From Fibrobacter sp. (GTDB lineage Bacteria > Fibrobacterota > Chitinivibrionia > Chitinivibrionales > Chitinispirillaceae): 50,528 nt of DNA. Under the pieces are notes generated by a model, which had not been told where the DNA came from, did not search any database, and saw only the letters and a list, made by a program, of their open reading frames with translations. The stretch is taken from contig JAAYIG010000187.1 in the NCBI GenBank assembly GCA_012523595.1, positions 1 through 50,528 of the forward strand, read 5' to 3'. How positions within the stretch are numbered: the stretch's first letter is position 1; each line of letters begins with the position of its first letter. Both the position numbers and the translations under genes were made by a program. This document shows positions 1,325 to 33,666 of this stretch, piece by piece.

Positions 1325-3169
1325 TTAACCTCTTGATGCGATGCGCTGCATCTCTGCATCGGCTTCTTTGTAATACCTGTGGTCTTTTGATGTCTGAAGT
1401 GCGGATTTGACCTCGTACCAACTGTCAAGTGCATCACGCTTGATAACAGCCGTGGGATTCTGATCAAACTGTCTGCTTCTGCATTGGGCAGTGAAATACA
1501 AACGCTCCAGCCGTAAAGTACTTGAATTGACATACATGCCGGGAGTTCTGGAGCAAAGGTCAAGATAATTCAAAGCCTCGGAAATCCTCCCCTGGTTGAA
1601 AAGAAACTTTGCCTTCTCCAGATAAAACTCACCATCTTTGATATCTGTCCTGGAAAACAGGGAATTGAGCTCACTTCTTCTCCCCAGACCCTTTAAAGCC
1701 CTTATTCTGAATATCATCGCTTTGTCAACTGACGATTCCTGCGGAGAAAGCGATTCGTAAACTTCCAGAGCATTTTTATACTGCCCGGATTCAACTTCCC
1801 TTGTAAAAATAGACATCAGGTCATTTGTACCATGTTTCCTCTTGAGCTGATCGATAAGTGATTCCTGTGTAGCTATGGCAACTTGTGCCGGTGCCACCGG
1901 TGCAACTTGTTTCTTTTGTGCCACTGGCGGAGTGCTTTTGATAGGACGCGGCTCAGTTTTTTTAACCTGTTCCTCAACCACTTTCGGTTCCTCAGGTTTT
2001 TTTTCTTCCGGAATTTGGGGAACCTCTACTGTCCAGGCTGGTTCAACTACCGATACAGGCAGAGGCTTCTGAGCCAGATTTGCAACAATTTTCGGAATTA
2101 ACATGCCTGTTGCAAATACCCCCAGTACTATCAGCAGTACTGCTGCTGTCATGAGAAACGGGTTTTTTCTCCGCAGGTTCACTACTATCTTCTCTCTGTC
2201 GGCTCCCATAAACCTGGCCAGCTCCTGCTCAGGAGAAAGCGGTGTGGTACTTCGATGGATCTTGCCGATTTCAGAGAGAAAACTCATCGCGTCCTGGATC
2301 CTCTTTTCCCTGTCCTGAACCATGCACATGTGAATCAGGCGGCGGAATTTAGAGGGGATTTTGATATCATAGGCATCAAGAGGTTTATAGTCGTTTTTGA
2401 TCTTGGAAAGCATCAGTTTGGAAACATTCTGTTCCGGAAAGGCCTTCATTCCAGTAACCATCTCATAGAGAATTGTCCCAAGGGAATAGATGTCGGTGCG
2501 GATATCCGGTTCTTTTCCATCAAGCTGTTCAGGCGACAGATACTGCATCGTCCCCAGTATCGCTCCATCTGTGGTATGAATAGAGGCATCAGTGGGCCGG
2601 GCGATTCCAAAATCCATCAGCTTTACAATCCCATTGCTCGACACCATGATATTGGATGGTTTCAGATCACGATGAATTACACCATGATAAGTTTTACCAT
2701 AGATAACATAATTCTGATTGTGAGCATAGCGAAGCGCTCTGCCGATCATTATTCCTATCGACATCGCCACTTCTACAGGAAGAGCACCCCTGTCCTCGAT
2801 GATTTTCTCCAGGGTCTGCCCATCTATACGCTCCATCTCTATATAGGGAAGACCATTCCACTGCCCGACTGCATGAATTTCAATAATGTTAGGATGGTGG
2901 AGTTTGGCAGTGATCTTGATTTCCGTTTGGAAACGCTGCTTTGTATCTTCAGTATAGTTAGGATGGAGGAGTTTTACCGCTCTGTTAACCTCGAGCTGCG
3001 GATTCCATATTTCATATACATTGGCCATCCCTCCGACTCCCAAAAGTCCAGTAATGACACCTGAACCCATTGGTTCTCTTTTGGTGCCGTCAGGAAGAAT
3101 AACAGCGTTCCTCATGCGCTTAATCGAACCCTGATCAGCGTCGGCTGTCCTTCTGTCTTCCGGAGTCAT
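1325..3169 (-). CDS. Membrane-anchored eukaryote-like Ser/Thr protein kinase (PknB type)
   Basis: 614 aa. The kinase domain spans about residues 36-300: Gly-rich loop GLLGVGGMANVY (41-52), ATP-binding Lys66 in AVK, catalytic HRDLKPSN with Asp168, DFG at 187-189 and an LSPEQ activation-segment motif (211-215). All key residues are present, so the enzyme is probably active. One transmembrane helix lies at about 338-360. A Pro/Glu/Lys-rich linker and a helical TPR-like region, probably periplasmic, follow. No PASTA repeats are seen. The ATG at 3169 has AGGA five bases upstream. It is the first gene of a minus-strand unit with the beta-helix protein and the lipoprotein, which may be its partners or outputs (inference). 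Confidence 0.92.
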   Translation of the reverse strand: MTPEDRRTADADQGSIKRMRNAVILPDGTKREPMGSGVITGLLGVGGMANVYEIWNPQLEVNRAVKLLHPNYTEDTKQRFQTEIKITAKLHHPNIIEIHAVGQWNGLPYIEMERIDGQTLEKIIEDRGALPVEVAMSIGIMIGRALRYAHNQNYVIYGKTYHGVIHRDLKPSNIMVSSNGIVKLMDFGIARPTDASIHTTDGAILGTMQYLSPEQLDGKEPDIRTDIYSLGTILYEMVTGMKAFPEQNVSKLMLSKIKNDYKPLDAYDIKIPSKFRRLIHMCMVQDREKRIQDAMSFLSEIGKIHRSTTPLSPEQELARFMGADREKIVVNLRRKNPFLMTAAVLLIVLGVFATGMLIPKIVANLAQKPLPVSVVEPAWTVEVPQIPEEKKPEEPKVVEEQVKKTEPRPIKSTPPVAQKKQVAPVAPAQVAIATQESLIDQLKRKHGTNDLMSIFTREVESGQYKNALEVYESLSPQESSVDKAMIFRIRALKGLGRRSELNSLFSRTDIKDGEFYLEKAKFLFNQGRISEALNYLDLCSRTPGMYVNSSTLRLERLYFTAQCRSRQFDQNPTAVIKRDALDSWYEVKSALQTSKDHRYYKEADAEMQRIASRG

Positions 3170-8823: not shown

Positions 8824-10356
8824 CTAATCACAGGGCTGCTCTCTTTTCTTTACCTTGCCATCCGGAACTATGTTATACTCATCCTGATCAAGCTCCTCAT
8901 CCTGTTCTATCAACAATTGATATTTATGTGCCCTCTCCAGCCTGTTTTTCATCTGTTCACCCTCTTTCAGAAGATAGGCAGCAACAGCAGGATGAACTGA
9001 GAGCTTCACCTGATTTGCCCGGACATTGGACCGCTTCAGATCACGGTCTATTCTGGAGATTACTGTCTCGGGTGAGAACACCCATCCCAACCCTTCACAT
9101 ACCGGACATACATTTGTGAAGAACTCCTGCAGCTCCGGTCTGACTCTCTTTCTGGTTATCTCCATCAGTCCGAATTTAGAGAGGCCGGTCATCGATGTGG
9201 CAGTGGGATCAGCAGCCAACGCCTTGCGCATCGCCTCCTCAATCTTCCGCCGGTTATCCGCGTTTCTCATATCTATGAAATCGACCACGATGAGTCCACC
9301 GATATCCCTTAAGCGCAACTGACGGCAGATCTCAGCCGCAGCATCGAGATTAGTCTTGAAAATAGTCTCCTCAAGGCTTGATTTTCCCACATTTCTTCCA
9401 GTGTTTACATCAATTGCCACCAGCGCCTCTGTTCTGTCAATCAGAATATACCCGCCGCTTTTCAGCCAGACTTTACGCTTGAGGAGCCGGTCGAGGTCAC
9501 GCTCGATATTGAATTTGTCAAACAGAGGCACTTTTTGATTGTAGCGGATCACCCTGTTACAGAGATCCGGCGATAGCGCCTTCAGATAATTGAGTATCTC
9601 CCTGTAGTCATCATCCTGATCAACATACACCTCAGTAACATCCTCGGAGAAAAGATCCCTGATCACCTGGGTTGTAATACCCAGTTCTCTGTAAACCAGC
9701 TTGGGCCCGGTGCCGCTGAGCGCTTCCTCCTGTGCTTTCCTCCAGGCATCGAGCAGCATGTGGATCTCCTTCACAAACTCTGTTTCTGAGACCTTCAGCC
9801 CGATAGTCCTCACTATAAAACCTACCCCCTTTGGCTTTATCTGTGAGATAAGTTTCTTGAGCCTTACCCGCTTTTTGGTGTCCTGAGTCTTTTTGGAAAC
9901 CCCAATAAAGTCGGTATCAGGTACAAGCACCAGAAAACGTCCTGCAAGACTGATCTGAGTAGTAACTTTAGCTCCTTTAGTACTTATAGGCTCCTTGGTA
10001 ACCTGAACCAGTATCTCCTGGCCGACAGTCAGCACTTTTTCTATAGGAATCCTGGCAATCCGCCGGCGCTTCGATGAATCGTTGCCTGTATAGCGCTCCA
10101 TCAATTCATTGCCGACTTCAAGAAGCAGTGACGGGTCTACATCGGTTGCATGGAGGAATGCGCATTTATCCAGACCTATATCGATGAAGGCAGCTTGTAT
10201 ACCCGGCAGTATTGAGGTAACCCGGCCACGGTATATGTTTCCAACGAGCCGGAAATGATCAGGCCTTTCTACTACCAGTTCAACAACCTTGTCGTTTTCA
10301 AGCAGGGCAGCTCTTTTTTCTGTAGGAGTAGCATTAAACAGTATTTTTTTGGTCAT
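8824..10356 (-). CDS. rng: Ribonuclease G (RNase E/G family)
   Basis: 510 aa. A single-strand endoribonuclease for rRNA and mRNA processing. The S1-type RNA-binding domain covers about 37-130 (GNIYRGRVTSILPGIQAAFIDIG). The DNase I-like catalytic domain carries the two Mg-binding Asp residues, Asp316 (AIDVNTG) and Asp359 (VVDFIDM), with the same 43-residue spacing as in E. coli RNase E. The zinc-link CPVC is at 417-420. There is no long RNase E-type C-terminal scaffold, so RNase G is the better name. It starts 8 bases after the sprA stop and precedes rplU-rpmA, a common gene order. Confidence 0.95.
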   Translation of the reverse strand: MTKKILFNATPTEKRAALLENDKVVELVVERPDHFRLVGNIYRGRVTSILPGIQAAFIDIGLDKCAFLHATDVDPSLLLEVGNELMERYTGNDSSKRRRIARIPIEKVLTVGQEILVQVTKEPISTKGAKVTTQISLAGRFLVLVPDTDFIGVSKKTQDTKKRVRLKKLISQIKPKGVGFIVRTIGLKVSETEFVKEIHMLLDAWRKAQEEALSGTGPKLVYRELGITTQVIRDLFSEDVTEVYVDQDDDYREILNYLKALSPDLCNRVIRYNQKVPLFDKFNIERDLDRLLKRKVWLKSGGYILIDRTEALVAIDVNTGRNVGKSSLEETIFKTNLDAAAEICRQLRLRDIGGLIVVDFIDMRNADNRRKIEEAMRKALAADPTATSMTGLSKFGLMEITRKRVRPELQEFFTNVCPVCEGLGWVFSPETVISRIDRDLKRSNVRANQVKLSVHPAVAAYLLKEGEQMKNRLERAHKYQLLIEQDEELDQDEYNIVPDGKVKKREQPCD

Positions 10357-10364
10357 TTTTCAGC

Positions 10365-13300
10365 CTAAAATTGTATTTCTGCGATCAGATGGAACCTGTT
10401 GTCGATAATTTTCTTGTCGTCACCCTGAACCTTTCGTTCACCATAGGTGTACTCGGCTCTTCCGGTAACATTGTCCGTAAATATATATGTGAGATGAGGA
10501 GTGAAGTAGAAGTTCGTTTCAAAAGCAGTCGTATCCGCTTTTGTGAGTTCCACCTTCTTACCGATATTTCCCTTTAACCCGACAGTTGTACGACCCTTGA
10601 CTGGAATTACCCATGTCAGCAACCTGATCTCTGAAAGACGGCTGCTTTGCTCTATCTGATAATTAATATCAATATCATGGTTCTGCAATTCGCTTCTGTG
10701 TGTCTTTATTTCAGCAGAATCCAGCGTGTGAGCTCTGGAATGGCTGAAATTATAAGTAAAACTGACAGGCAGCTTTTTCATCGATCCGGTAACTGAAAGT
10801 AGCGGCGAAAAATCGAACCTGAAATCTGTATTGTTTCCAAGTACCCCGGTGTTTCTCCTGGATTTCCTGTAGCCGAAACTGGAACTGAGATTAAGACTCT
10901 GCAAAGCATCATTTATAAAACCAATTTTCATCAGGGCCGATGTCCTGGAACCAAGTGAAAAATCCGGAAAAACTATTGCGGTGTCCATTTTGGTACTGTC
11001 CGGAACCACTTTGAAACTTCTGTTCCAACCGATACTTATGGGACTGAAACTGATTTCAAAAGGAATTTTTAAATCCAGTCCTGAAGAGATACTGTATTTC
11101 TGGTCTACAGTCCGGTAATCATTACCATAGAAGTCTTTTTTGCTGTTATTATCGTCTCTGTATTTCATTCCGCCCAGGGCCATGTCATCCATGTTTCCGG
11201 AGAAGAAGTTTCCTGCCTTCCCGCTCAACCCAAGTTGATATTTAAGAAATTCAAATTGTCCCGACCTGCCAAGCAGAGATGATTCAAGATAGTTGTTTTT
11301 CAGATCAGATCCGGCGGTATAGTTAAAGGTGATCTGCCTCAGTCCCACGTTATCGAAACCTTTGTCAAGCAATTCAAAAAACTTACCTGCTCCGTCCTTG
11401 CCTGTCGCATCCATAAATCCTTTAAGAAGCATATCGATATTCAGATTTGCGTTAAGGGAGAGAGTTGATTTTACTCCGGCACTGATATAGTCTTCGGCAC
11501 CGGTTCTCCAGTTCACCATATCGGCTCTGTAGTCGGAAACATACTCTCCTGATGTGGAAAGCCAGTCAAAGATCTGAGGGTTAAGTTTGAGGCTGGCATG
11601 CTGTGTCCTGTTCTTCTCACCCCAGAGAACCATAAGATGTTTGAAGTTCGGATCTTCATGACGGGAGAATATCCTTCCCCATTCATCGGTGGAATCATGT
11701 TGAGAATTCCTGTACATATCTCTGTCGATGCCAATGCTGTATGCCAGATCGATCAGAGGTGAAATGGGGGAATAATCGAGAGCAAAGCCATGATGCAGGT
11801 CAAAGGTACCTATGATACTCTTGTCTTCCAGACGGTTATCATCCCTGATTTCCTTTCCTTTTCTCAAATCAACAAGATCGAATTCAATCCGCTCAGGAAG
11901 CAGGGAGAATTCGTAATTTTTCAGCGGCTTTGGAATCCACTTCGATGTATCGGTTTGCAGCGGTTTCCATTTTGTCCACTCTGGCGGCTCCTGAGGATTG
12001 AGGTTGTACTTGAGCTTTCCTGAGTAGGATTCTCTGTCTGTTCTGATCACATAATCCCCGATACTGTCGGATGGAGCGGGTCCCTGCCACAGTTCATCCC
12101 TGGACCTTGTCCACTCAACCTGTGCTCCTATCCTGTCGGCGGTAAGATTGACAATAGGGTTATCGGAACGGGATGATTTACTGTAGTTGGCGAAAAGCTT
12201 GTTATTTGTGTTCTGAGTCTCATAATGCTCAGCTTTTGTCATGTCATCCCTGTCTTTTTCCCTTCTTAAAAGTATATCACCAGCATCAGAGATCATGTCC
12301 ATCAGATTGTCAGAGCGTCCGTTCTCTTTTGTAAGATAGACATCGGAGTTGGTTTTAAGCTGGGGACGGGTAACAGAGCCGGAAACGGACCCTCCCACAG
12401 GGATAGATACCCCCCACTCCGATGGAAGAAATTTGTCAAGATACAAGGTTGAACTGAAGTTACCTGTCAACGTGGAATTATCGGGTTTAAGGGAGTTTTC
12501 GGTCATCCGCCTGAAATCTCCATCCTCGTAATTGAGATCAGCGGATATATCAAGCAGGTCTGCAAATTTACTATTGAACCTGCTGCTCATGGCCCATCCG
12601 TTAAGTTTCCCTATACCGCTTACCTTCATGTCATTTACCCACAGTTCGCCCGAAGAGAGAGAATCTTCCCCTGCAGTATTCTCCTCCCTGTATACTCCTA
12701 TTCCCATCCACTGGATATTGGAAAGATTGGGCTGCCTTCCTCTGGGTGCCTTTACAAGCAGACGACCCTTTCCATAAGAGAGAGAATCGAGGATCAGAGT
12801 GTCGGGATTGGAGAGCATATAGTTGTCTTTCAGCTCCGCAATCCTGCGCAGATCGATGGAAATCTGATTCCATCCTGAATAGAGATCTCCTCTGTACTCA
12901 TAATAACAGGAATCATCTGTGCCGAACCTGAACACAAAATCCACTTTTCCCCCGTAAAGGAGTGCCTTGTCCGCATTGCTTCCGGAGGGGCTTTTTCCAT
13001 AAACGTACAGACTCAGATTCCTGTAAGCGGAAAGGTTGATATTCTGATAGGAATAATTTCTGGTTATAAGCGCAGTCTCCCCCTCCTTGACATTCTGAAA
13101 AATAAGCTTCAATGCGCTCTCCCGCTCGTAATCTCCGGTCTGTTCATCCCTTTTCCAATGGAATATATCTCCCCTGGTACTGGATCTGTATTCTGAATCT
13201 TCATGGTTATTTATAGATACAGCCTCGATCTTTGTACCGATCGAATCGTAAAGAGGCTGCCACTGATTGCCAACAAACTGCATGTCATAGAAAATGAGCT

Positions 13301-16300
13301 GCTGTTCCTTGTTAAGAGCAGTAGTGTCAAAATCGGTCCAGATAAACCTGACCATCTTTATTTCCGACCACCTGGGACTATTGACAGAATCACGCATGTG
13401 TTCATAACCTGCCAGTACCTCCTTAAGCGGAATACGTACCTTTCTCCATCCTCCGGCAGGGTTAAGCTTTGCTGTTTTATCATAGTAGGGAGCATCGGCA
13501 TCAGAGAGATCTATGGTAAACTCAAAGTACCTCTCCTGAGTGTGTGTCTGGATAGTACCGTCAAAATTGATATCCTCAGATGTCAAATAGCCATCACCCT
13601 GTTTTTTACAGGCATACCGGTAAAAATCAACATTAGTCTCATAGTTTTTATAATCATCCCTGGCAGGATCCGGAAATTTGATACTGTCGTAGTACAGCGT
13701 ATCCCAGGTGAACAGTTTTTCACCCGGAATCAGATAGTACTCATCCCTGTTTGCTTTCCGGTCCAATCCAAGATCATCTTTCTGCCGGTAAATATCGGTC
13801 CAAATCGCGCTTGTATCCTCTTTATCCGACATCTGATTCGGCGGTCCTCCGTTAAGAGAAATATCTTCTCTCATGTCACCCATCTGAATTTTCAGAACAC
13901 CCTTTCTGTCAAACCCGCCCACAGCTTTGACCATAAACTCAAAGTAGCGGTCACGCTCCTTGTTCATGAAACTGCTTGAGATCGGTGTCATTATTCCGGC
14001 CCATGCCTTGCGGAATCTCCTGATTACCTCACCCGAGGATGTGTCCGGCGCAGGTGTGGCATGCAGCCTGACAACAGTCTCATAAATCTCATCTCCTGCT
14101 GTCGGTTTCTCATTTCTGTCCCATATTTCCCTTCCATCCACCCTGTGCCTGGAGTCGACCGATCTGGGTGTAAACCAGTAAAAATCAAAAGCAGGAGGAT
14201 AAAGATACAGGGAATCGGAATGGTATGGCGGGCTTGACTGAAACCAACTGTCAAAAGTACCGCCGATAGAAAACGGCTGTTTACTCTCCTCAAAATCATC
14301 TACATATGCTTCGTTTTCCGTATTGGGATTCATCCTGCTGTGGGCCAGCTCGAAATCAAACTGTATCTTGGAAGAAGCATCAGTTTTGATTAGCGGAATC
14401 TTATTAACAAGTGCAGTCATCCATTCCGGTTCCAGATCTATTCTGGTGTTAACATCAAAAAGCACCTTGTTATAAGGCTCCTGCTCCAGCCGCGGTATAT
14501 CATCGAGAATTTTCGTATTCTGGAACAGAATACTCATACCTGTAAAAGATTTTTCGCCCAGAAAAGGAAGCTTCAGCTCGCCATGCATACCCATGAACAG
14601 CTTACGGTCAGGTACAAAAAGAGCCTCTCTCTGATACTCGATTTCCACTCTGTCTGCGGTTCTGGCAAGTGGTGATGTCAGTTCAAGAGTTCCCATATCA
14701 TAACTGATCACATAATCACGGTCTCTCTGAAGAACCTTGCCGTCTGCAATAACCCGCTCTGTTCCTTCCATTACCCCCCAGCCCAGGTCAAAAACTGTCT
14801 GTTTTTTTGTTCCCGACATAATAAGAACGTAGGGAGATCTGTAATTATCAATCCGGTCTACATTGTAACGGTAGACGAACCTGTCGCGTTCTGTCAATTC
14901 CGGATTATCAAAAGGTTCATTCCCGAAAAAGCTGGTATCATAGGGAGGAATTATAAGGACACCATTATCTTTGTCAAAAATGTCAGATCTGGTGACAAGC
15001 GGCTTTCCGTTCAGAGTCAAACCCAGTATGTCGGAAATATGAGTATTGCCCTGACGTTCCTCCCCGATTCCGCTGACAGGTGTAGTTTCTACCTTGAGGG
15101 TAAAATTGGAAAAATCAGGAACTGACAACTGATAAACGTTTCTCCACATCAGGTAAAACCTTGATGTATCCGCACTGGCTGAGTCAATCGGCGCCTCAGT
15201 CTTAAGAGTCCAGAGATTAAGAGAGGTGTCCTGTTTCTCTCCTCTGCTGATCTGAGGACTTTCTGTCCTGAGATATATCGCAACATGGTCATTTGCGCTT
15301 ATAGTTATCGAATCAAATCTTATCCATCCTTCCTCTTTGTTCAGATAATAATGCATGTCCTGAAGAAGCAGCTCGAATTTGTACTTCTGCATGTTATCAT
15401 CAGTTGTGGCTTCCCTTACAGTGCGGTTGGGCAATTTCTCGATTTCAGTCGCCTGAGCAGGATCAACTCTCCGGTACACCTCCAGAGTAGTTACCTTGGG
15501 AGGAGCCTGTGGATTTGATGGAGCACCCTTTCCATACTTGAGGTTGTAGGCAGCTCTGTAAATATTGTGAAGGAAGAAGAATTTGTTTTCCAGATACTGG
15601 TTTACTTTGTAAGGGATCCCGCCCTCCGAGCTCTGCCCTGTACTGTTCGATACTGTCAGCTTATTGGTTTCACCCTGCTCATGACTGACAATCGTTGTCA
15701 ACTTCAGAGGACCAAGCTGTGATCTTATTTTTATTCCAAACAGTCCCGCATGATTCTCCTGGTAACCGGCAAGCCCCTGCCCGGGCATCTGGAATCCTGT
15801 ATAACCGGCTATCACCTCCTGAATGATCTCATCTTCCAGTTCTCCCGGCCTGGATTCCTTGTACTCGATCTTAAAATTTTTCAGATTGTCTGTAAGCGAA
15901 ATCTCCTCTTCGCTATTGGCTTTGATATTGATATTGATAAGACGCCCCACACTTCCAACGATACTGAAATTGTACATAATGTCAAAATCCAGCCCGGTGG
16001 TGGAAGCAGTATTATCATTCAGGTCAGAATTCATCGTCTTTGAATGGTCGAAGCCCATCTTTATTGTCAGATTCCCGTCAATACTGAGACGCGGGGGATC
16101 ATTTCCAAGTACCCTCTGAGCCCAGGATGGGTACTGTACGGGAATCTCCCACTGCAGTTTCATGAGCTGGGGCTTTGTTTTCTCCTCCTGCTTCCGGGGA
16201 GCAGAAATACCCTTATGCCAGCCCTGGTAAAGGGCGAAATTTTTCCTTGATAAGAGATAATCACTGAGTTCAGGATAGTGATACTCCCACATTGTATAAC

Positions 16301-16568
16301 CCAGAGAATCCTGACGGCGGAAGGTGATCTGACGTTTCTCAAAGTCAATAACCGAAGTGTCTCTGAAAAGCTGGGTATTAAGCTCCAGTATCACCGGATT
16401 TTTATGGGCGAGCTGTGATGAGGCGTAAGGCTCTTCATCGAGCGGATGAAAGCCCTCTATTCTGGGCTTCTCAAAACGGATACCCTGCTGTCCGGATGCC
16501 ACGGAAAAGCCTGAAATAGCTGTAAACAGAAGAATATAAAGAAAGCTGCCTTTAGAGGACCCTGTCAC
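10365..16568 (-). CDS. sprA: SprA/Sov-type outer-membrane translocon protein of the type IX secretion system
   Basis: 2067 aa, one uninterrupted frame. In Bacteroidota SprA forms a giant beta-barrel that moves type IX cargo across the outer membrane. A signal peptide ends near residue 26 (VASG/QQ). The long beta-rich body contains the family-typical AYVDDFEESK at about 757, many repeated strand/turn segments and a C-terminal Phe (HLIAEIQF) expected of a barrel strand. It is somewhat shorter than the approximately 2400-aa Flavobacterium protein. The start is GTG at 16568 with only a weak GAGAAAG ahead of it. It follows the FGE-fold gene by 62 bases and precedes rng by 8, so these are likely co-transcribed. 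No other recognisable type IX gene is in the window. Confidence 0.9.
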   Translation of the reverse strand: MTGSSKGSFLYILLFTAISGFSVASGQQGIRFEKPRIEGFHPLDEEPYASSQLAHKNPVILELNTQLFRDTSVIDFEKRQITFRRQDSLGYTMWEYHYPELSDYLLSRKNFALYQGWHKGISAPRKQEEKTKPQLMKLQWEIPVQYPSWAQRVLGNDPPRLSIDGNLTIKMGFDHSKTMNSDLNDNTASTTGLDFDIMYNFSIVGSVGRLININIKANSEEEISLTDNLKNFKIEYKESRPGELEDEIIQEVIAGYTGFQMPGQGLAGYQENHAGLFGIKIRSQLGPLKLTTIVSHEQGETNKLTVSNSTGQSSEGGIPYKVNQYLENKFFFLHNIYRAAYNLKYGKGAPSNPQAPPKVTTLEVYRRVDPAQATEIEKLPNRTVREATTDDNMQKYKFELLLQDMHYYLNKEEGWIRFDSITISANDHVAIYLRTESPQISRGEKQDTSLNLWTLKTEAPIDSASADTSRFYLMWRNVYQLSVPDFSNFTLKVETTPVSGIGEERQGNTHISDILGLTLNGKPLVTRSDIFDKDNGVLIIPPYDTSFFGNEPFDNPELTERDRFVYRYNVDRIDNYRSPYVLIMSGTKKQTVFDLGWGVMEGTERVIADGKVLQRDRDYVISYDMGTLELTSPLARTADRVEIEYQREALFVPDRKLFMGMHGELKLPFLGEKSFTGMSILFQNTKILDDIPRLEQEPYNKVLFDVNTRIDLEPEWMTALVNKIPLIKTDASSKIQFDFELAHSRMNPNTENEAYVDDFEESKQPFSIGGTFDSWFQSSPPYHSDSLYLYPPAFDFYWFTPRSVDSRHRVDGREIWDRNEKPTAGDEIYETVVRLHATPAPDTSSGEVIRRFRKAWAGIMTPISSSFMNKERDRYFEFMVKAVGGFDRKGVLKIQMGDMREDISLNGGPPNQMSDKEDTSAIWTDIYRQKDDLGLDRKANRDEYYLIPGEKLFTWDTLYYDSIKFPDPARDDYKNYETNVDFYRYACKKQGDGYLTSEDINFDGTIQTHTQERYFEFTIDLSDADAPYYDKTAKLNPAGGWRKVRIPLKEVLAGYEHMRDSVNSPRWSEIKMVRFIWTDFDTTALNKEQQLIFYDMQFVGNQWQPLYDSIGTKIEAVSINNHEDSEYRSSTRGDIFHWKRDEQTGDYERESALKLIFQNVKEGETALITRNYSYQNINLSAYRNLSLYVYGKSPSGSNADKALLYGGKVDFVFRFGTDDSCYYEYRGDLYSGWNQISIDLRRIAELKDNYMLSNPDTLILDSLSYGKGRLLVKAPRGRQPNLSNIQWMGIGVYREENTAGEDSLSSGELWVNDMKVSGIGKLNGWAMSSRFNSKFADLLDISADLNYEDGDFRRMTENSLKPDNSTLTGNFSSTLYLDKFLPSEWGVSIPVGGSVSGSVTRPQLKTNSDVYLTKENGRSDNLMDMISDAGDILLRREKDRDDMTKAEHYETQNTNNKLFANYSKSSRSDNPIVNLTADRIGAQVEWTRSRDELWQGPAPSDSIGDYVIRTDRESYSGKLKYNLNPQEPPEWTKWKPLQTDTSKWIPKPLKNYEFSLLPERIEFDLVDLRKGKEIRDDNRLEDKSIIGTFDLHHGFALDYSPISPLIDLAYSIGIDRDMYRNSQHDSTDEWGRIFSRHEDPNFKHLMVLWGEKNRTQHASLKLNPQIFDWLSTSGEYVSDYRADMVNWRTGAEDYISAGVKSTLSLNANLNIDMLLKGFMDATGKDGAGKFFELLDKGFDNVGLRQITFNYTAGSDLKNNYLESSLLGRSGQFEFLKYQLGLSGKAGNFFSGNMDDMALGGMKYRDDNNSKKDFYGNDYRTVDQKYSISSGLDLKIPFEISFSPISIGWNRSFKVVPDSTKMDTAIVFPDFSLGSRTSALMKIGFINDALQSLNLSSSFGYRKSRRNTGVLGNNTDFRFDFSPLLSVTGSMKKLPVSFTYNFSHSRAHTLDSAEIKTHRSELQNHDIDINYQIEQSSRLSEIRLLTWVIPVKGRTTVGLKGNIGKKVELTKADTTAFETNFYFTPHLTYIFTDNVTGRAEYTYGERKVQGDDKKIIDNRFHLIAEIQF

Positions 16569-16630
16569 AATTCACTTTCTCTTTTTCTGCCCTTTTCCGG
16601 GCTGTATGCAAGGGAGATTTTCTATCACCA

Positions 16631-17821
16631 TCATTTCTTCTTTTTCTCCCCCGTCTCTTTTGCCTCTGGAACATCAGCACAGCAGCGAAATCCTACCGGA
16701 TTGTGCTGGTTTTGAGGATAGTAGCTGTACCTCTTATCTGAACACCCGCTCTTCTGACCACTCTGGTGAAAACCACCCTGAACATAGTAAAAACTTGTGT
16801 TCTCTCTGGCCCTGGTATCAGTCCACTCCATTAGATTTCCCGACATATCATAGACATCGAAGAAACCCCTGCACTCGGGTCTGCTCCCGGATGCCACATA
16901 AATAGTGTCATGTGTAGCACAGGCATAGGGCTCGTAAAACTGGCCATAAGGATACTTCCAACCGTGTGGTCCTGTGCAGGCAAGATACCATTCTTCTGAT
17001 GTACACAGTCTTTTTCCTGCCGCAAAACAGGAATCAGCGGCATGGTAAAAGGAAATATAGGAAAGAGGCATTACACCTTTACGGTTGGGCCATTCGTATC
17101 GGTCAATACAAAACCGGGTTGAACCCACTTTTATATACTCCATATCCGGAGGACACACTGAGGGGCTGCTTGCCTGCTCAATCTCATAGAACTCTTCCCG
17201 CGTCTCCATCCCTCTGCCGCAGGTGTCCCTTCCCTCATAAACAATCACTCCGGTTTTGCTCATCCTGACCGGATCACCACTGTAAACTGTCCAGGCTGTG
17301 TCGCCTTTGAGACGCCACCGGATTACCGCTCCCTTTTTGTTAGCGAAAAACCTGATATCCACAGGTTTACGGTGAAGTCCACCGGAGGGATCGGGATAAA
17401 CCCACAAACCTAATGTATCAAGTTCACAGGGGTCCCGGGAATCCTCTTCCTCCACAGCTACAACAGAACTGTCTTTTATCGAATCCTCTTTAACCTCCTC
17501 AGTAACCGTATCCGCTGTGATTAAACTCACTGGCGGTGCCTCCTTTCTGAGGGGCTTTTTCTCAACAGGTACCACCTTTTCCTTTGGAACCGTATCCACC
17601 GGAACCGTATCCACCACTGTATCAGCAGTTGTATCAGGCAAAGCTGCTTTTTCCTCTTTTGGAGGCTCCTCCTGTATAACCTCTTTCTGCTCCGGAAGAG
17701 AGATTTCAGGCGGCTCACACCGAAAAAGCCGGAAAACCAAAAATAACAAAAAAACCAGAAATAACAACAGTATCAGCCATATCCGGTTTTTCTTCTTTTT
17801 TTGACTTAAGCGCTTCTGCAC
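16631..17821 (-). CDS. Membrane-anchored FGE/SUMF1-fold protein, possible GldK/GldJ analogue
   Basis: 396 aa. A Lys-rich start and one transmembrane segment (about 13-32) are followed by a long Pro/Glu/Val/Thr linker (about 37-125). Residues about 150-215 resemble the chitobiase C-terminal-like module (DIRFFANKKGAVIRWRLKG). Residues about 221-382 are an FGE-sulfatase domain: CPPDMEYI, FCIDRYEWPN, ADSCFAAGKRLCTSEEWYLAC, YDMSGNLMEWT and GFRCC. The fold is shared by formylglycine-generating enzymes and by GldK/GldJ of the type IX system. Cys35 is preceded by Arg, so a lipobox is unlikely. The start is GTG. Its position directly upstream of sprA supports a secretion role (inference). Confidence 0.85.
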   Translation of the reverse strand: MQKRLSQKKKKNRIWLILLLFLVFLLFLVFRLFRCEPPEISLPEQKEVIQEEPPKEEKAALPDTTADTVVDTVPVDTVPKEKVVPVEKKPLRKEAPPVSLITADTVTEEVKEDSIKDSSVVAVEEEDSRDPCELDTLGLWVYPDPSGGLHRKPVDIRFFANKKGAVIRWRLKGDTAWTVYSGDPVRMSKTGVIVYEGRDTCGRGMETREEFYEIEQASSPSVCPPDMEYIKVGSTRFCIDRYEWPNRKGVMPLSYISFYHAADSCFAAGKRLCTSEEWYLACTGPHGWKYPYGQFYEPYACATHDTIYVASGSRPECRGFFDVYDMSGNLMEWTDTRARENTSFYYVQGGFHQSGQKSGCSDKRYSYYPQNQHNPVGFRCCADVPEAKETGEKKKK

Positions 17822-17865: not shown

Positions 17866-18705
17866 CTATGAAAAGTACTCTACTGGCAGACCTTTTTCAA
17901 TTACTGCGAGCACTTTCAGAAAATCCCGGGTTTCATCCACATCATGCACCCGGAAAATCCTGCTTCCTCTCAAATACCCCGCGGCCACAGTAGCGAGTGT
18001 CCCACATAGACGATCCTGAACTTCTTTACCGGTTATCTGACCTATAAACCTCTTTCTCGATGTACCCAGCAGGACCGGATATCCAAGCTCCGCTATTTTA
18101 TCGAGACCCCTTAAGAGAGCCAGATTATGCTCGGCGGTCTTGGCAAATGCAAATCCAATTCCCGGATCAAGTATGATTTTGTCCCTGGAGACTCCTCCTT
18201 CGATGAATTTCCTGCAGGCATCGAGAAGCTCCTCTCTCACCTCAGAAACCACATCATCATAGCCGGGATTTATCTGCATGGTCTCCGGTGTCCCACGGCT
18301 GTGCATCAGCACCATGGTACATTTCCGCCTCGCAGCCAACCTGATCATCTCCGGATCGGCTCTGCCAGCGCTGATATCATTTATCCATGATGCCCCGGCA
18401 TCCAGTGCCGCCTCTGCTACACCCGACCAGGTGGTATCAACACTTATTGGCCCGCTGAACCGGGCAGCCACCTCTTTAATCACTGGCAATATTCTTCTCT
18501 TCTCCTCCTCCTGAGGAACCGGAGAAGCTCCGGGGCGGCTGGATGCACCTCCAATATCCAGTATGTCTGCACCCTGTTCGGCAAGCCTGAGACTATGCTC
18601 CACAGCCGAAACAGTTGTATCGTGCTTTCCCCCGTCATAAAAAGAATCAGGAGTGACATTCACCACTCCCATAATCCTGAAAGGTACTTTGATTTCGTTA
18701 TTCAT
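17866..18705 (-). CDS. folP: Dihydropteroate synthase
   Basis: 279 aa. Condenses p-aminobenzoate with hydroxymethyl-dihydropterin pyrophosphate in folate synthesis; the sulfonamide target. A TIM barrel with the full motif set: NVTPDSFYDGG (16-26), DIGGASSRPGA (50-60), SVDTT near 88-92, NDIS near 109-112, LDPGIGFAFAKT (179-190) and GTSRKRF (214-220). The family's usual ...GES/A-T/S-RPG is present as GASSRPG. The ATG at 18705 gives a normal N-terminus. It follows ftsH on the same strand, as in many bacteria, but an intrinsic terminator lies between them. The anchored FGE-fold gene starts 44 bases after its stop. Confidence 0.96.
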   Translation of the reverse strand: MNNEIKVPFRIMGVVNVTPDSFYDGGKHDTTVSAVEHSLRLAEQGADILDIGGASSRPGASPVPQEEEKRRILPVIKEVAARFSGPISVDTTWSGVAEAALDAGASWINDISAGRADPEMIRLAARRKCTMVLMHSRGTPETMQINPGYDDVVSEVREELLDACRKFIEGGVSRDKIILDPGIGFAFAKTAEHNLALLRGLDKIAELGYPVLLGTSRKRFIGQITGKEVQDRLCGTLATVAAGYLRGSRIFRVHDVDETRDFLKVLAVIEKGLPVEYFS

Positions 18706-18737: not shown

Positions 18738-18775
18738 TTAAAAAACAAAGAGGCAGGAACAGTTTTTCTGCCCCT
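18738..18775 (-). terminator. Intrinsic terminator between ftsH and folP
   Basis: Minus strand: AGGGGCAG pairs with CTGCCTCT (8 bp, one G-U) and is followed by TTGTTTTTT. A second small hairpin (CAGATC-TTT-GATCTG, near 18805-18825) lies between this and the ftsH stop. Confidence 0.6.
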
Positions 18776-18850
18776 ACCAGCGTTGTAATTTCTCTGCCCG
18801 GGTTCAGACAGATCAAAGATCTGCCTGTATGATATCGGGCATTGTTTTTA

Positions 18851-20902
18851 TCAGTTAATACCGGCAGCAGGCTCTGTCTCCGGTCCTACTGTCACCGTAT
18901 TTTCAGGCTTCTCCGGTGCTTTCCTCAGAAGAGACCGCGTTTTCTTTACTGTCTGGAGCGTATCCCCGCTGATCACCTTCATGATTTCTTCACGGTCAAG
19001 AAGTTCATGTTCCAGAAGAGCATTTGCGAGCATTTCAAGCTGGTCACGGTGCTCAGTGAGAATCTCTCTTGCCCTCTGAGCCTGTTCCTCTATCATCACC
19101 CGCATCAGACGGTCTATCTCTTCCGCGGTTTTATCCGAGTAGTCCCTGTGACGGGAGATCTCACGTCCCAGGAAAATCTGCTCATCTTTTTCACCGTAGC
19201 TTAAGGGTCCCAGTTCATCTGTCATTCCGTAATCACAGATCAGTTTACGGACCAGATTAGTGGCCTGTTTAATATCGCTTGCCGCACCGGTCGTCTGATT
19301 CCCGAACACTATCTCCTCAGCCATCCTTCCGCCAAGCATAATGCAGATACGGTCGAGTATATACTGTTTGGAATAGCTGTGCTTATCTTCCCAGGGAAGC
19401 GAAAAGGTGACTCCCAGCGCCCGTCCCCGGGGAATAATTGTCACTTTATGAAGAGGATCGGCCTCTTCACAATAGATATTGCATATGGCGTGTCCTGCCT
19501 CATGATAAGCTGTAAGCTTTTTCTCTTTCTCGGACAGTACCATGCTTTTCCGTTCAGCACCCATCATGACCTTGTCTTTGGCTTCTTCAAAATCGAGCAT
19601 GGTGACAGTGTCCTGACCAAACCTCGCAGCCATAAGTGCCGCCTCATTGACCAGATTCGCCAGATCCGCTCCCACAAATCCCGGTGTTCCGCGGGCAATA
19701 GTGTAGAGATCAACATCAGCGCCCATAGGAATGCTCTTTGTATGCACCTGAAGGATTCCCTCTCTTCCCTTTACATCAGGAACATCCACCACTATCTGCC
19801 TGTCAAACCTCCCCGGTCTCAGAAGAGCCGGATCGAGAACATCAGGTCTGTTGGTAGCAGCAATGAGTATGACACCTGAATTCACCTCAAAACCATCCAT
19901 CTCTACCAGCATCTGGTTGAGCGTCTGCTCCCTCTCGTCATGACCGCCACCAAGCCCGGCCCCCCTCTGACGTCCAACAGCATCGATCTCATCGATGAAA
20001 ATTATGCAGGGTGAATTCCGTTTGGCTGTCTCGAACAGATCACGTACTCTTGAAGCACCCACCCCCACAAACATCTCCACAAAATCAGATCCGCTCATCG
20101 AGAGAAAAGGCACTCCAGCCTCACCGGCAACACACCTTGCAAGCAGAGTCTTTCCGGTTCCGGGAGGACCTAAAAGCAGCACACCTTTAGGAATCTTGCC
20201 ACCAAGACGCTTGAATTTCTTTGGATCCTTAAGAAAATCGATTATCTCCTGAAGTTCCTGCTTGGCTTCCTCAACCCCCGCAGCGTCAGCAAATGTTATC
20301 TGGGGACGATCCATCGGGTTAAGTTTGGCACGGCTTTTCCCGAAAGTAAATATCCCCTTCTGCCCCGCCTGCATCTGCCTCATGATAAATAACCAGACAA
20401 GAATCATCAGTACCCAGGGAAGCGCATTGAGCAGCACATCTCTCACGTCAAGCTTATCCTGCTCGAATGTGTACTGAAATCCGGCATTATCCCATTTGGA
20501 AATCATCTCACTGTCAATATAGGGAAGATTGACGGTGAAATACTTGCCAGGCGCATTATTCTTTATGGAAGGAATCTTGCTTAATGATGAAGGATCGGCC
20601 AGTTCACCGATAAAAATCGCTTTATTAAGCCCCTTCTGCAATACATCAGCTCTGACAATTTTCACTTCAGGATTTGCAAGTACCTCCTGAAATTGACTGT
20701 AACTGATCTTGACTTCTTTTCTGGTACCGAAACCCTCGATCGCACGCAGTGCAAACACAACAGCTATCGCTATGGCCAGCCACATCAGAACAGTCTTGCC
20801 AGGGTCCTTGCGCGGACCCTTCTTACCTGTATTTTCCTTCTGCTTTTTCTTTTCAGAAGACACCAGGCGGTCCTCCCTGCTTTTCTGCTTTTTTTCTTCC
20901 AA
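18851..20902 (-). CDS. ftsH: ATP-dependent zinc metalloprotease FtsH
   Basis: 683 aa. Inner-membrane AAA+ protease for misfolded and short-lived membrane or cytosolic proteins. Transmembrane helices lie at about 37-56 and 160-175 with the periplasmic domain between. Walker A GPPGTGKT (245-252), Walker B IIFIDEID (300-307), the second region of homology [15 protein letters not shown] and the zinc site HEAGH (467-471) are intact. The N-terminal cytosolic stretch is unusually long and Lys-rich (about 36 residues). The start is TTG at 20902 with AAAGGA seven bases upstream. The tilS-ftsH-folP order is widespread; hpt, often between tilS and ftsH, is absent here. Confidence 0.97.
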
Positions 20903-21062: not shown

Positions 21063-22427
21063 TCAGGCAGGTGAGCAGAGATGAGATTCGATTCTTATAA
21101 TCCGGCGAGTTGATTCTGTAACACGACTCTCATGATCTATCTGTATTCCGGGAATCCATACTATCTTATTGCTCTGATTTACTATAACTCCAAACCCTTC
21201 ACCAAGCATCCTGGGTATACCTTTACTTACCAGGTATTTTATCACTTGTTGTCCTGCTCTCATCCCTAAAGGCTGGAACCTGTCCTCTGCACTTATGCTG
21301 CGGTATAAAAGACGCTCTCCACAGCAGTTCCGGTCAAGCACAACCGACCAATTATCACTCTTTATCTTTCCATGTGGGGGATCGCCCTCTGAAACAGAAA
21401 ACCGCAAATTTACATCATGTAACTCGGTATTGCCTGGCACCGCAATCTCGTATCGGAAATCCCTCTTCTCCACTCTTTCCCGCACAAAGAAAACTCCCTC
21501 TTTCCTGGGGAAATAGTGCCATCCGCAGGGAAGAAGATACTCCTTTCCCCTGTTTCTGGAATTATAAAAAACATTCTCAACATGAGCACGATACACAGGG
21601 ATCCTGTTGCGTTCAAAGAGCGCCTTTATCCCCTCTCCCGCTTCGGGGCGCATTTCCAACCCCTCTTTTTTAAGCAGGAATGATTGGTCTGGAAAAATAA
21701 TTACGAATCTACCGATCCACTTATTGGCCTCCTGAGAGAGAATACCCCAGGAATCATGAGCTCTCCAGGCCAGTGATGAAAGGTTCTCTATTACATCGGG
21801 AACATCCCTGCTCAAAGCAGGAAGCAGCTTATGACGTATGCTGTTGCGACGAAACCGCGTCTCAGCATTGGATGAGTCAGTGCGGAAAGAGATCCCTTTC
21901 ATTGAGAGCCATTCAACCAGCTCGCTTCTTGCTATGTAAAGCAGAGGCCTGATCACCCCGTCCTCTCTGAGCGGAAGAATTCCCCGAAGACCCTTTAATC
22001 CGGTACCCCTGAATATCCTAAGCAGAACTGTTTCCGCCTGATCATCGGCAGTATGTCCGGTCGCCACAAAATCAAACCCACCACTCTCCATCACCGAGCG
22101 GAAAAACCGGTACCGCTCTCTCCTGGCCCACTGCTCTATCCCCGGATCTTCACTGTTGTACCCACTCAGATGCTTGACAAAAAATTGAAGGCCCAAACTG
22201 GATGAAAGCTCTCTTACATACTGCTCATCACCATCGGATTCCGCTCCGCGCAACCCATGATTAACATGCGCAACTGCCAGATTAGAGATCTTCAGTTCAT
22301 CCCTGAGTTCATGCAGCAAACACAGCATCGAAACGGAATCACTGCCTCCGCTTACCGCCGTCAGTACCGATGAATTCGGGAGGAGAAAACGGCTGCAGAA
22401 TAACAGGATTTTTTCAGAGGGTGACAT
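21063..22427 (-). CDS. tilS: tRNA(Ile)-lysidine synthetase
   Basis: 454 aa. Attaches lysine to C34 of the CAU-anticodon isoleucine tRNA so that it reads AUA instead of AUG and is charged with Ile. The N-type ATP pyrophosphatase loop SGGSDS is at 26-31, followed by the conserved HVNHGLRGAESDGDE, ATGHTADDQAETVLLRIFRGTGLKGL and FRRNSIRHKLLP segments. A C-terminal substrate-binding half extends to about 450 (GEGFGVIVN, IDHESRVT), so the long E. coli-like form is present. The ATG lacks an obvious Shine-Dalgarno sequence. The next feature upstream is a tRNA gene that itself carries anticodon CAU. Confidence 0.95.
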   Translation of the reverse strand: MSPSEKILLFCSRFLLPNSSVLTAVSGGSDSVSMLCLLHELRDELKISNLAVAHVNHGLRGAESDGDEQYVRELSSSLGLQFFVKHLSGYNSEDPGIEQWARRERYRFFRSVMESGGFDFVATGHTADDQAETVLLRIFRGTGLKGLRGILPLREDGVIRPLLYIARSELVEWLSMKGISFRTDSSNAETRFRRNSIRHKLLPALSRDVPDVIENLSSLAWRAHDSWGILSQEANKWIGRFVIIFPDQSFLLKKEGLEMRPEAGEGIKALFERNRIPVYRAHVENVFYNSRNRGKEYLLPCGWHYFPRKEGVFFVRERVEKRDFRYEIAVPGNTELHDVNLRFSVSEGDPPHGKIKSDNWSVVLDRNCCGERLLYRSISAEDRFQPLGMRAGQQVIKYLVSKGIPRMLGEGFGVIVNQSNKIVWIPGIQIDHESRVTESTRRIIRIESHLCSPA

Positions 22428-29026: not shown

Positions 29027-30892
29027 TTGAATCCCATGAGCACTGAAATTAAAAGCAACACAAAGGGAAATCCTCAGAAATTCGGGCGTTACGTTGTAAA
29101 AAGCATTCTGGGAGAGGGTGCAATGGGCCGTGTCTATCTGGCGGAAGATCCTGTTCTTCAGCGCCAGCTAGCAGTAAAAGTAATTGCTCTGGAGAAGACC
29201 CTGGATGAGACAACCCGGCGTGAATATCTGGAAAGATTTGCAATCGAGGCCAGGGCTTCTGCCAGACTCAGTCATCCTTCGATTGTAGCAGTACACGATG
29301 CGGGGCAGCAGGATGGAGTGCCGTGGATAGCATTTGAATATGTCAAGGGAGAGGGGCTGGATCAGCTTATCAGACATCACAAAAAGCTGCCTTATGAAAA
29401 AGTCCGCATTATTGCTGTCCAGATTGCCTCTGCTTTACACCATGCCCATGAACACCACATAGTTCACCGTGATGTCAAGCCGGCCAACATTCTGCTGGAT
29501 TCCCGAACCGGTATAGCCAAGCTCACCGACTTTGGAGTGGTCAAGGCTCCCTGGACAGGCCTGACCCAGTCCGGAACAAGCGTAGGTTCTCCGGGCTATA
29601 TGTCACCTGAGCAGATCGATGGTTCGAAAATCGACCACAGAAGTGACCTGTTCTCTCTTGGCGTTGTGATGTACGAGATGATCACAGGGAAACACCCCTT
29701 TGTCAGGGAAACCGTTCCTGCCACTTTTTATGCGACTATATCGGAAAACTACGAGCCTATTCTGAAAATCTGCCCGGATATTCCCCTTGAACTGGAAAAA
29801 GCTGTAAAGGGTTTATTAACCTCAAACAGAGAAAACCGTATCGCCTCAGCACTGGATCTCATAAAGCAGATCTCCCGCAAGCATGATGAACTTGGCAGCG
29901 GGCATCTTCACCTCTCAGGCAGAAAAAACCGTCCCCAATCACTTATCAGAACTATCACAGGCAGATTTAACATCCGCGAGATAGCCGTTACCATAGCAGA
30001 ATACATTAAAACCAACCGCAAACCGGCAATTCAAAAGACTCTGGAGTTGCTGGACAGCATGGGAAAACGGCTCCGGCCGGCAGTTGAATTTGTAAAAAAC
30101 CTTATAATCGAGGGAAAAAAACGTTTTCAGGACCTCCCCGAACCAGCCAGAAACAAACTGAATATCGGAGCTACAGTTCTATTCCTGGTTATAATCTCCA
30201 TTGGAACTGCAGTCACTCTTAATAAGATTTTCAAGCCTGCTCCTGAGAAAAAGCCTCTGATCCAACTCGAGCCGGAGGTCCCCTCGGAACTCCTTTACAG
30301 ATTTGATCAGTCACTTTCCAATGGCATTTTTAGTGAGGCACGGGCAATCAGGGACAGCCTCGGCCAGAATAAAGATCTCTCGAAATGGGTAAATTTTCTC
30401 AACGCCAGGATGGAACTTGTGAACGGCAGGTACAGTGAGGCAATCGACAGCTTCACTAATCTGAAAAAAACGGGTGGGAAACAGCTTATAAACAACCAGA
30501 TGCCCCGTCTGATAACGGACATAGAAAACAGATTTGTCCGTGGAAGGGCCCCGGAACCGCTTGTGTATCTCGCGACCCATGTGCTTTCCATCCACGACTA
30601 CAAAAGAGCTTCGGAGTTGCTTTATGATAATCACTACTGGAAACGATGGAATATGGTGAGAGTATTCGAATCAGCAGGGAAAAAAGTTGACATGGTTAAA
30701 ATCCATATCCTTGATCTTCAGACCGCAGCCAGTGTTTCCACCCGGAAGAGAGCGGCCGAGAAGCTGGGGGAACTGGGTGATCCCCGTGCCATTCCTGCAC
30801 TGAAAAAGGCCAGGGACAAGGGATTTCGGGACCCCTTTGTGGCCTCCGCAGCAGGCGAGATCCTTGAGCGCTATTTCAGTGATGCTGAATAG
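29027..30892 (+). CDS. Membrane-anchored Ser/Thr protein kinase with TPR and HEAT-like tail
   Basis: 621 aa. Kinase domain about 22-285: Gly-rich ILGEGAMGRVYLAED (27-41), Lys51, HRDVKPANIL (147-156, catalytic Asp149), DFG (168-170), and GSPGYMSPEQ before the P+1 loop. All key residues are present. A transmembrane helix lies at about 379-398. The tail shows TPR-like helices (about 415-560) and a HEAT-like element at the end, RKRAAEKLGELGDPRAIPALKKA. The start is TTG: AGGAAAGG at 29013-29020 is six bases upstream, whereas the ATG three codons later would be too far. It converges with the ParB-like gene with 27 bases between. The substrate is unknown. Confidence 0.9.
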   Translation: MNPMSTEIKSNTKGNPQKFGRYVVKSILGEGAMGRVYLAEDPVLQRQLAVKVIALEKTLDETTRREYLERFAIEARASARLSHPSIVAVHDAGQQDGVPWIAFEYVKGEGLDQLIRHHKKLPYEKVRIIAVQIASALHHAHEHHIVHRDVKPANILLDSRTGIAKLTDFGVVKAPWTGLTQSGTSVGSPGYMSPEQIDGSKIDHRSDLFSLGVVMYEMITGKHPFVRETVPATFYATISENYEPILKICPDIPLELEKAVKGLLTSNRENRIASALDLIKQISRKHDELGSGHLHLSGRKNRPQSLIRTITGRFNIREIAVTIAEYIKTNRKPAIQKTLELLDSMGKRLRPAVEFVKNLIIEGKKRFQDLPEPARNKLNIGATVLFLVIISIGTAVTLNKIFKPAPEKKPLIQLEPEVPSELLYRFDQSLSNGIFSEARAIRDSLGQNKDLSKWVNFLNARMELVNGRYSEAIDSFTNLKKTGGKQLINNQMPRLITDIENRFVRGRAPEPLVYLATHVLSIHDYKRASELLYDNHYWKRWNMVRVFESAGKKVDMVKIHILDLQTAASVSTRKRAAEKLGELGDPRAIPALKKARDKGFRDPFVASAAGEILERYFSDAE

Positions 30893-31953: not shown

Positions 31954-33666
31954 TTGGATATAAAAACCAAGATTCGCAATTTGAAGATATCCGGAGATCT
32001 AATATGGATATCTCTGTTGTTTTTATTTATTGCTGCGAACGCTTATAAATGCACTGTTTTCAGGCTGATTCTTTCTGATCTGAAAAACCCATATTTCAGC
32101 ACTGCTTTTTCATATTACTCCTCATATCTGATGCTTTGTTCCTTTGTGTTTCTTCTTTTATTCAGATTGAAGCAGTTCTGGCTCGCTGTTGTTTTTTACT
32201 CCCTTCAGTTTCTGTTTTTATCCGTCAATTTGACCTATTATTTTTTCTTCGAAAGCTACCTTCATCTCAACCAGTACATTCACCTGTTTAATGAAGCAGT
32301 TCAACTGCTCCGACACACAGCGGCTCCACTCGAGGGCAGGCTTTTCATCGTTTTTCTGGATCTTCCTCTGCTTGTGGGACTCTTTTTTTTCCGCAAACAT
32401 ATCTCCTTCCGCTCTCCGCCTCTCCGGTATGCAGTATACGCCCCCTTCCTGATTCTCCTGGTAAAGCTTTCCCTGTGGAATCCATTAAAAAGTGAGAGGT
32501 TGCGTGATATTATCGATGACCGGTACGCCGGAGAACTGCTTGCAGTTAAAAAATTCGGTATAGGCATGGTAAATCTTGTTAATCTGACCAGAATAAATCA
32601 AGACGCTAAGTACCTCAAGGCTCTTAACAATAAGGGAAAACTGATTGAGACAGCTATTGATACCTCTGCAGAAGTACCCGGTTTTTTTGTCATCCAGATC
32701 GAGTCGATGGATTCTTATGTCATCAATAAAAAACACAAGGGCAGGTTTATTACTCCCTTTCTTAACAGGCTCAGTAAAACTGCAGTTTACTACCCTTACA
32801 CACTGAGCTATCACAAAGCCGGGTCAACCTCAGACTGTGAATTCTCGGTAATAAACAGCCTGGAGCCTCTTGATCACTTCCCATCAATGAAAATAAGGAA
32901 CTATAACTTCCCCAATTCCATCGCCAGAAGCCTTGCAAAGGACAGTTTCGATGTTGCGATATTTCACGGAAACAGAGGTGAATATTTCAACAGGAGAATA
33001 GCATTCAAAAAAATGGGATTCCCCGCATTCTATGATATCTTCGACATGAAACTCAAAGAGGTACGCTGGGGTGCTCCTGATCACGAGGTTTTCAATTTTG
33101 CTCTCCGCTCTCTTCAATCGGCAAAGGATCCTTTTTTTTATTACCTGATTACCATGAGCAGTCATGAGCCTTTCACTTTTACCGAATCCTATTATCAAAA
33201 TCCTCGCTATGATGACATCGGGGGAAAAAAAGTGCGGAATTTTTTCCAGTGCATGTCTTATGTCGACAGTACTCTTAATAGTGTTGTGACAAGAATACGA
33301 GAGATGCGTCCCAACACAGTAATTTTCATCTTTGGCGATCACACTCCCGGAATTAAGAATGACCTCTACAAGCAGGCATCATTTAAGGAGTCAGGGATGT
33401 ACTTTGAGTTTACCCCCCTGTTTATAATTACCCCTGATAACCGCAAATACAGCGAAAAAAAGCGTGTTGCCTCCTTTCTGGATATCGTCCCCACCATTCT
33501 CTCGATATGCGGAAACCACCACGGAATCCACTCTTACGGTGTCAATCTGCTGGAACCAGATAAGGAGTTTGGTCCTATTCCTTACGGTGGCACGCAGCAG
33601 GACCGTAAAATCCTTTTCCAGAAGATTCACCCTTCAGACAACAAATCCCGGAAAAGGCATAACTGA
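31954..33666 (+). CDS. LtaS/OpgB-like phosphoglycerol transferase (sulfatase superfamily)
   Basis: 570 aa. Four to five transmembrane segments lie in residues about 16-175, then an extracytoplasmic alkaline-phosphatase-type domain. GSTSDCEF (290-297) carries the likely nucleophile Thr292, and Glu250 in IQIES, MSSHEPF and IFGDHTPG match metal-binding positions of LTA synthases. In monoderms LtaS builds lipoteichoic acid; in diderms relatives add phosphoglycerol to periplasmic glucans or other envelope glycans. As this organism appears diderm, a glycan or lipid substrate is more likely than LTA. The start is TTG with AGGA eight bases upstream. It has no close operon partner. Confidence 0.88.
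   Translation: MDIKTKIRNLKISGDLIWISLLFLFIAANAYKCTVFRLILSDLKNPYFSTAFSYYSSYLMLCSFVFLLLFRLKQFWLAVVFYSLQFLFLSVNLTYYFFFESYLHLNQYIHLFNEAVQLLRHTAAPLEGRLFIVFLDLPLLVGLFFFRKHISFRSPPLRYAVYAPFLILLVKLSLWNPLKSERLRDIIDDRYAGELLAVKKFGIGMVNLVNLTRINQDAKYLKALNNKGKLIETAIDTSAEVPGFFVIQIESMDSYVINKKHKGRFITPFLNRLSKTAVYYPYTLSYHKAGSTSDCEFSVINSLEPLDHFPSMKIRNYNFPNSIARSLAKDSFDVAIFHGNRGEYFNRRIAFKKMGFPAFYDIFDMKLKEVRWGAPDHEVFNFALRSLQSAKDPFFYYLITMSSHEPFTFTESYYQNPRYDDIGGKKVRNFFQCMSYVDSTLNSVVTRIREMRPNTVIFIFGDHTPGIKNDLYKQASFKESGMYFEFTPLFIITPDNRKYSEKKRVASFLDIVPTILSICGNHHGIHSYGVNLLEPDKEFGPIPYGGTQQDRKILFQKIHPSDNKSRKRHN

Follow-up and report, generated by a model that had tools for sequence, protein, structure and literature searches.

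The fold of formylglycine-generating enzymes (FGE) has been repurposed in the type IX secretion system (T9SS), for which PorK, GldK and GldJ are the precedent described in the accessible part of PMC12421860. According to the same text, PorK retains neither catalytic cysteine and contains an insertion responsible for ring formation, InsH (R81-P230), and the accessible part of PMC9127263 presents GldJ as an FGE fold put to another use and lacking the active site of SUMF1. An earlier note on the DNA studied here had pointed to the fold shared with GldK and GldJ, and the published precedent bears this out. A T9SS has been reported as present or possibly present in Fibrobacterota (PMC11285876, PMC5837995, PMC6851124, PMC12611786), and the available sections of these four articles name neither its ring nor its motor. 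T9SS and gliding terms do not occur in PMC4704652, and no description of the FGE gene was found in the accessible open-access literature. Fibrobacterota include rumen cellulose degraders, and how SprA is energised in these bacteria is the question at stake.

The window analysed here is a stretch of 50,528 nucleotides, contig C187 of a 4.1 Mb source genome assembled in 260 contigs. Its minus strand carries, in this order, tilS (21063..22427; TIGR02432, 172 bits), ftsH (18851..20902; TIGR01241, 842 bits), the dihydropteroate synthase gene folP (17866..18705; TIGR01496, 321 bits), the gene of the FGE-fold protein (16631..17821; an open reading frame call of 396 aa with a GTG start; PF03781, 42 bits), the T9SS outer-membrane translocon gene sprA (10365..16568; 2067 aa; TIGR04189, 440 bits against a cut-off of 200) and rng, of the RNase E/G family (8824..10356; TIGR00757, 480 bits). 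The FGE gene lies 44 bases downstream of folP and is separated from sprA by 62 bases (16569..16630), in which a scan of the window found no terminator-like site; rng follows 8 bases past sprA. The same scan placed a minus-strand terminator-like stem of 11 pairs between ftsH and folP (18752..18778), and its reading as a terminator is only suggestive, with 18 such sites in the scan against 13.8 expected. Elsewhere, the window encodes an LtaS-like sulfatase-fold membrane protein (31954-33666, plus strand), Ser/Thr protein kinases (1325-3169, minus strand; 29027-30892, plus strand) and a 1080-aa open reading frame (35143-38385, minus strand) with no Pfam match at E<=1e-5.

The layout proposed in the earlier note for 16631-17821, an anchor followed by a linker and an FGE-sulfatase domain with sprA 62 bases on, was confirmed, as was the nature of the anchor, which is a transmembrane helix by hydropathy and charge (residues ~14-32; 17726..17782, minus strand). 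The most hydrophobic 19-residue stretch of the protein starts at residue 14, with a mean hydropathy of 3.0, and is preceded by 7 K/R and 0 D/E, which puts the positive side inward. An excess of positive charge ahead of the anchor was found in 55 of 57 orthologues, none of which (0/57) has a lipobox, and a helix spans residues 4-34 in a low-confidence predicted model. These 57 aligned sequences come from the examined loci and are a subset of the 146 genomes with relatives of the protein. The linker that follows (residues ~33-139; 17405..17725, minus strand) was delimited by composition and length. It is charged, Pro-rich and poorly conserved; that of the window protein measures ~107 aa with 17% E and 12% P, and linker length ranges from 0 to 222 aa across the 57 orthologues (median 115), the shortest values probably resulting from incomplete N-termini.

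Residues ~140-215 (17177..17404, minus strand) form a module recognised by the conserved P and G of its PDPSGG motif and by weak matches. The earlier note had called it chitobiase-like, which is the least secure part of the layout. The name is backed indirectly by six CHB_HEX_C_1 repeats in an FGE paralogue of the same genome, but Pfam searches of 26 orthologues returned nothing for the module at E<=0.1. A single orthologue gave an OmpL47-type match at this position (E 4e-4), and structural matches to PKD/Ig domains, made with a low-confidence model, were weak (best E 0.017). Ig-like module is the safer name. The compact FGE-fold domain (residues 223-381; 16679..17155, minus strand) was delimited with PF03781, which scores 42 bits over residues 242-381 (cut-off 23.3) and was found in 26/26 orthologues (E<=0.1), and with the alignment, in which it measures 156-161 aa and holds the peak of conservation, chiefly in a final YSYYPQN..NPVGFRCC motif. 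Two AlphaFold runs of three sequences each gave mean pLDDT values of 40.7 and 33.4, too poor for use, and Foldseek returned no match at E<=0.001 with the first model of the protein. We therefore infer the FGE fold from Pfam.

Ten cysteines are conserved in the FGE domain, eight of them invariant in 57/57 sequences. C273 and C381 are absent jointly, from the same 4 of the 57 sequences, as expected of a disulfide pair. The conserved cysteines thus look like structural disulfides, a pattern that fits a periplasmic protein. PF03781 was matched over model positions 82-254 only, leaving the N-terminal part of the fold unmatched. With this incomplete match and a disulfide-like cysteine pattern, the protein is probably not a working FGE. 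The catalytic cysteine pair appears to be missing, as judged against what we take to be the catalytic motif of FGE and from alignments to SUMF2 only. Searched against solved structures, the full profile retrieved SUMF2 (1y4j) first (E 1.9e-16), and catalytic FGE chains (E ~1e-7) scored slightly better than PorK (1.8e-6). A C-terminal sub-profile of 7 sequences retrieved SUMF2 as best match and PorK next; SUMF1/FGE chains were absent at E<=1, and no direct alignment to SUMF1 across the active site resulted. Close homologues were not confined to sulfatase-activating enzymes, one of the two outcomes that the earlier note had named as counting against its proposal.

We propose, as somewhat more probable than not, that the gene encodes an inner-membrane-tethered, non-catalytic FGE-fold docking protein and is a core envelope gene of Fibrobacterota. 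The single-pass anchor would hold the protein at the inner membrane, and the flexible linker would take the Ig-like module and a disulfide-stapled FGE domain into the periplasm. There the FGE domain, having most likely lost catalysis, would serve as a docking surface, as in PorK. In most of the phylum the gene belongs to an ftsH-folP-(cdaA) block, and in the window's taxonomic order, most likely Chitinivibrionales, this ftsH-folP-(cdaA)-FGE block is joined to sprA-rng. With the blocks joined, SprA and the FGE-fold protein are probably co-produced in that order.

Distribution was analysed across Fibrobacterota, in 150 genomes. Relatives of the FGE-fold protein (E<=0.001) were found in 146 of them, a few of these relatives being paralogues, and SprA in 145; with the set restricted to completeness of 90% or more and contamination of 5% or less, these numbers become 87/89 and 89/89. 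Two genomes, G022 (98% complete) and G091 (90%), have SprA and no match to the FGE-fold protein. Within the window's order, 34 of 40 genomes have sprA immediately downstream of the FGE gene in the same orientation (33 by open reading frames and G063 by coordinates). In two genomes of genus g12, G003 and G041, the genes are truly apart, and linkage was not judged in G051, G053, G065 and G075, in which a gene is missing or lies at a contig end. The gene is directly preceded by folP in 30 of 33 loci of the order; in the other three the stretch ends near the FGE gene, with folP outside.

Outside the order the picture differs. The FGE gene and sprA are adjacent in 0 of the 86 genomes of families f8 to f13 with best places for both proteins among the matches listed; 24 of the 110 genomes of these families were left out, with one protein missing, weak or unlisted. 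The two genes share a contig in 3 of the 86, at distances of 12 kb, 1.0 Mb and 1.6 Mb. In the examined loci, the gene follows folP-cdaA in f8 and f9 (L071 and L074 show only cdaA) and folP in f11 and f12. It has neither folP nor sprA close by in f10 and f13, nor in genus g12, to which G003 and G041 of the window's order belong. The ftsH-folP-(cdaA)-FGE block is found in f8, f9, f11 and f12 as well as in the window's order. For its part, sprA adjoins rng in f9, f12, f13 and one f10 genome, and not in the examined f8 loci. Since the FGE gene mostly follows folP or cdaA outside the order, its adjacency to sprA looks like a join of two blocks, ftsH-folP-(cdaA)-FGE and sprA-rng. Conservation of the pair, which the earlier note had suggested testing across Fibrobacterota, therefore holds within one order, and linkage to sprA, whose absence that note had named as adverse, is lacking only in the genomes outside it. 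Collectively, the linkage suggests co-expression in one order and not partnership.

As a near-universal protein of the phylum that has the fold of PorK and, in one order, a gene next to sprA, it is a concrete candidate in the question of how SprA is energised. We regard it as possible, and hold only tentatively, that the FGE-fold protein works with the SprA translocon as part of a T9SS without recognisable GldK, GldL, GldM or GldN; its tether would span the periplasm and its FGE domain would dock at SprA or at a ring. This possibility, raised in the earlier note, is consistent with the co-directional pair in the order, with the FGE fold of PorK, GldK and GldJ (PMC12421860, accessible part) and with a T9SS in the phylum: the source genome has SprA and 76 matches to the type IX sorting tail model TIGR04183 at E<=0.001, the best above cut-off, and such tails are present in 41/41 genomes searched. 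GldK (TIGR03525) was above cut-off in 0/150 genomes, with weak sub-cut-off matches in 149. GldL, GldM and GldN were each above cut-off in 0/150 genomes as well (weak in 7, 0 and 1, respectively), but the control genomes were silent for all three models, so that absence is not proven. Tree-distance co-variation, calculated as partial correlation for the 17 of 34 order loci and 21 of 24 f8 genomes that passed length filters, placed FGE-SprA highest of ten gene pairs in the order (0.495, p 0.001, n=17). However, the same pair gave -0.018 in f8 (n=21), where the genes are unlinked. Partnership with SprA is further weakened by the 0/86 adjacency outside the order, by the wider adjacency of sprA being with rng, and by G022 and G091, which have SprA without the FGE-fold protein.

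Several other observations concern the T9SS of this phylum. PorV-like proteins were above cut-off in 62/150 genomes. In one f9 locus, a PorV/PorQ-family gene (L050:2712-3752; NF033709, 64.6 bits, below the cut-off of 90) lies before tilS in the block of the FGE gene. Further along (L050:10361-19407; G002:C58), the FGE gene and a TPR-propeller-ExbD-ExbD-TolQ-TPR cluster, its ExbD and TolQ named by eye, are convergent, and an ExbB/ExbD-like cluster is also found near the FGE gene in L075. Such a cluster is a possible candidate for the motor in a phylum without recognised GldL and GldM.

It is unlikely, in our estimate, that the FGE-fold protein is instead a periplasmic partner of FtsH, or serves another function in membrane quality control, with its linkage to sprA an accident of operon fusion. 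The ftsH-folP block in f8, f9, f11, f12 and the window's order argues for such a role, as does the FGE-FtsH partial correlation in both groups (0.389, p 0.0135, n=17 in the order; 0.737, p 0.0005, n=21 in f8), and HflC was above cut-off in just 11/150 genomes. But FtsH, being long and slow-evolving, may do no more than follow the species tree most closely, and the same method gave 0.731 for CdaA-SprA in f8 (n=21) with no known reason. In view of this unexplained value, we consider the co-variation method noisy and do not rely on it. In addition, the terminator-like stem parts ftsH from folP in the window, and ftsH did not accompany the FGE gene in the loci examined from f10, f13 and part of f8 (L071, L074). 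Were FtsH the client, the protease would have in this protein a periplasmic partner of a new type.

A bolder version of the link to SprA, which we consider rather doubtful, is that the T9SS of Fibrobacterota has no GldK/L/M/N ring and motor, with the tethered FGE-fold protein taking the place of the ring in connecting the inner membrane to SprA. It is highly improbable that the protein is a catalytic member of the FGE family, formylglycine-generating or a related oxidase: PF03781 is above cut-off and catalytic FGE chains are retrieved by the full profile, but the model leaves the N-terminal portion of the fold without a match, the cysteines behave as structural, and the LtaS-like sulfatase-fold protein of the window is without the C-x-P-x-R motif. 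A role in sulfatase activation was rejected on this last ground, the formylglycine motif being absent from that protein. In other bacteria CdaR occupies the corresponding place, and we give very little credence to the FGE-fold protein acting in its stead to regulate the di-AMP cyclase CdaA: in the examined f8 and f9 loci cdaA immediately precedes the FGE gene, but small CdaA-type cyclases occur only in these two families, and families f10 to f13 keep the protein although the listed f10 and f11 genomes, G108 (f12) and G130 (f13) are all without a DAC domain. With CdaA missing from families that keep the protein, it is not a general client, and a CdaR-like role was discarded.

The docking protein that we favour can be set against several known relatives. 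Closest at hand are the long FGE paralogues that the same genomes encode (such as L044:1984-4425 and L045:6912-9674), which likewise have a cysteine-rich FGE domain, with a C-terminus in GFRCCK or IRCCK. They differ in their length of 770-1077 aa, in having several Ig-like, PKD or CHB repeats, and in their gene neighbourhoods, some with TPR genes. In the source genome (L044:1-10208; G000:C183), one long paralogue, in which six chitobiase-like repeats accompany a cysteine-rich FGE domain, is flanked on both sides by TPR genes, one of them of 1950 aa, and this three-gene order recurs in three other genomes (L065, L066 and L067). Among solved structures, SUMF2 (1y4j) is the best sequence match to the window protein. 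Unlike SUMF2 and FGE/SUMF1, the latter is compact, bacterial and membrane-anchored, and catalytic cysteines are not evident in it.

The earlier note had compared the protein with GldK and GldJ and suggested a divergent type IX partner. Orthology to either is ruled out by the models, the type of anchor and the length of the domain. The window protein shares with GldJ a repurposed FGE fold, but it has no TIGR03524/TIGR03530 match and no lipobox, and no gld genes were seen beside it. It differs from PorK/GldK in having no TIGR03525 match (E<=0.01) and in its transmembrane anchor, PorK/GldK being outer-membrane lipoproteins with a lipobox. InsH of PorK measures ~150 residues, for which an FGE part of 156-161 aa leaves no room; conversely, the Ig-like module and the ten conserved cysteines are additions of the window protein. 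What it has in common with PorK/GldK is an FGE-type, presumably periplasmic fold, recognised here by sequence only, which is probably non-catalytic and is encoded in a genome with SprA.
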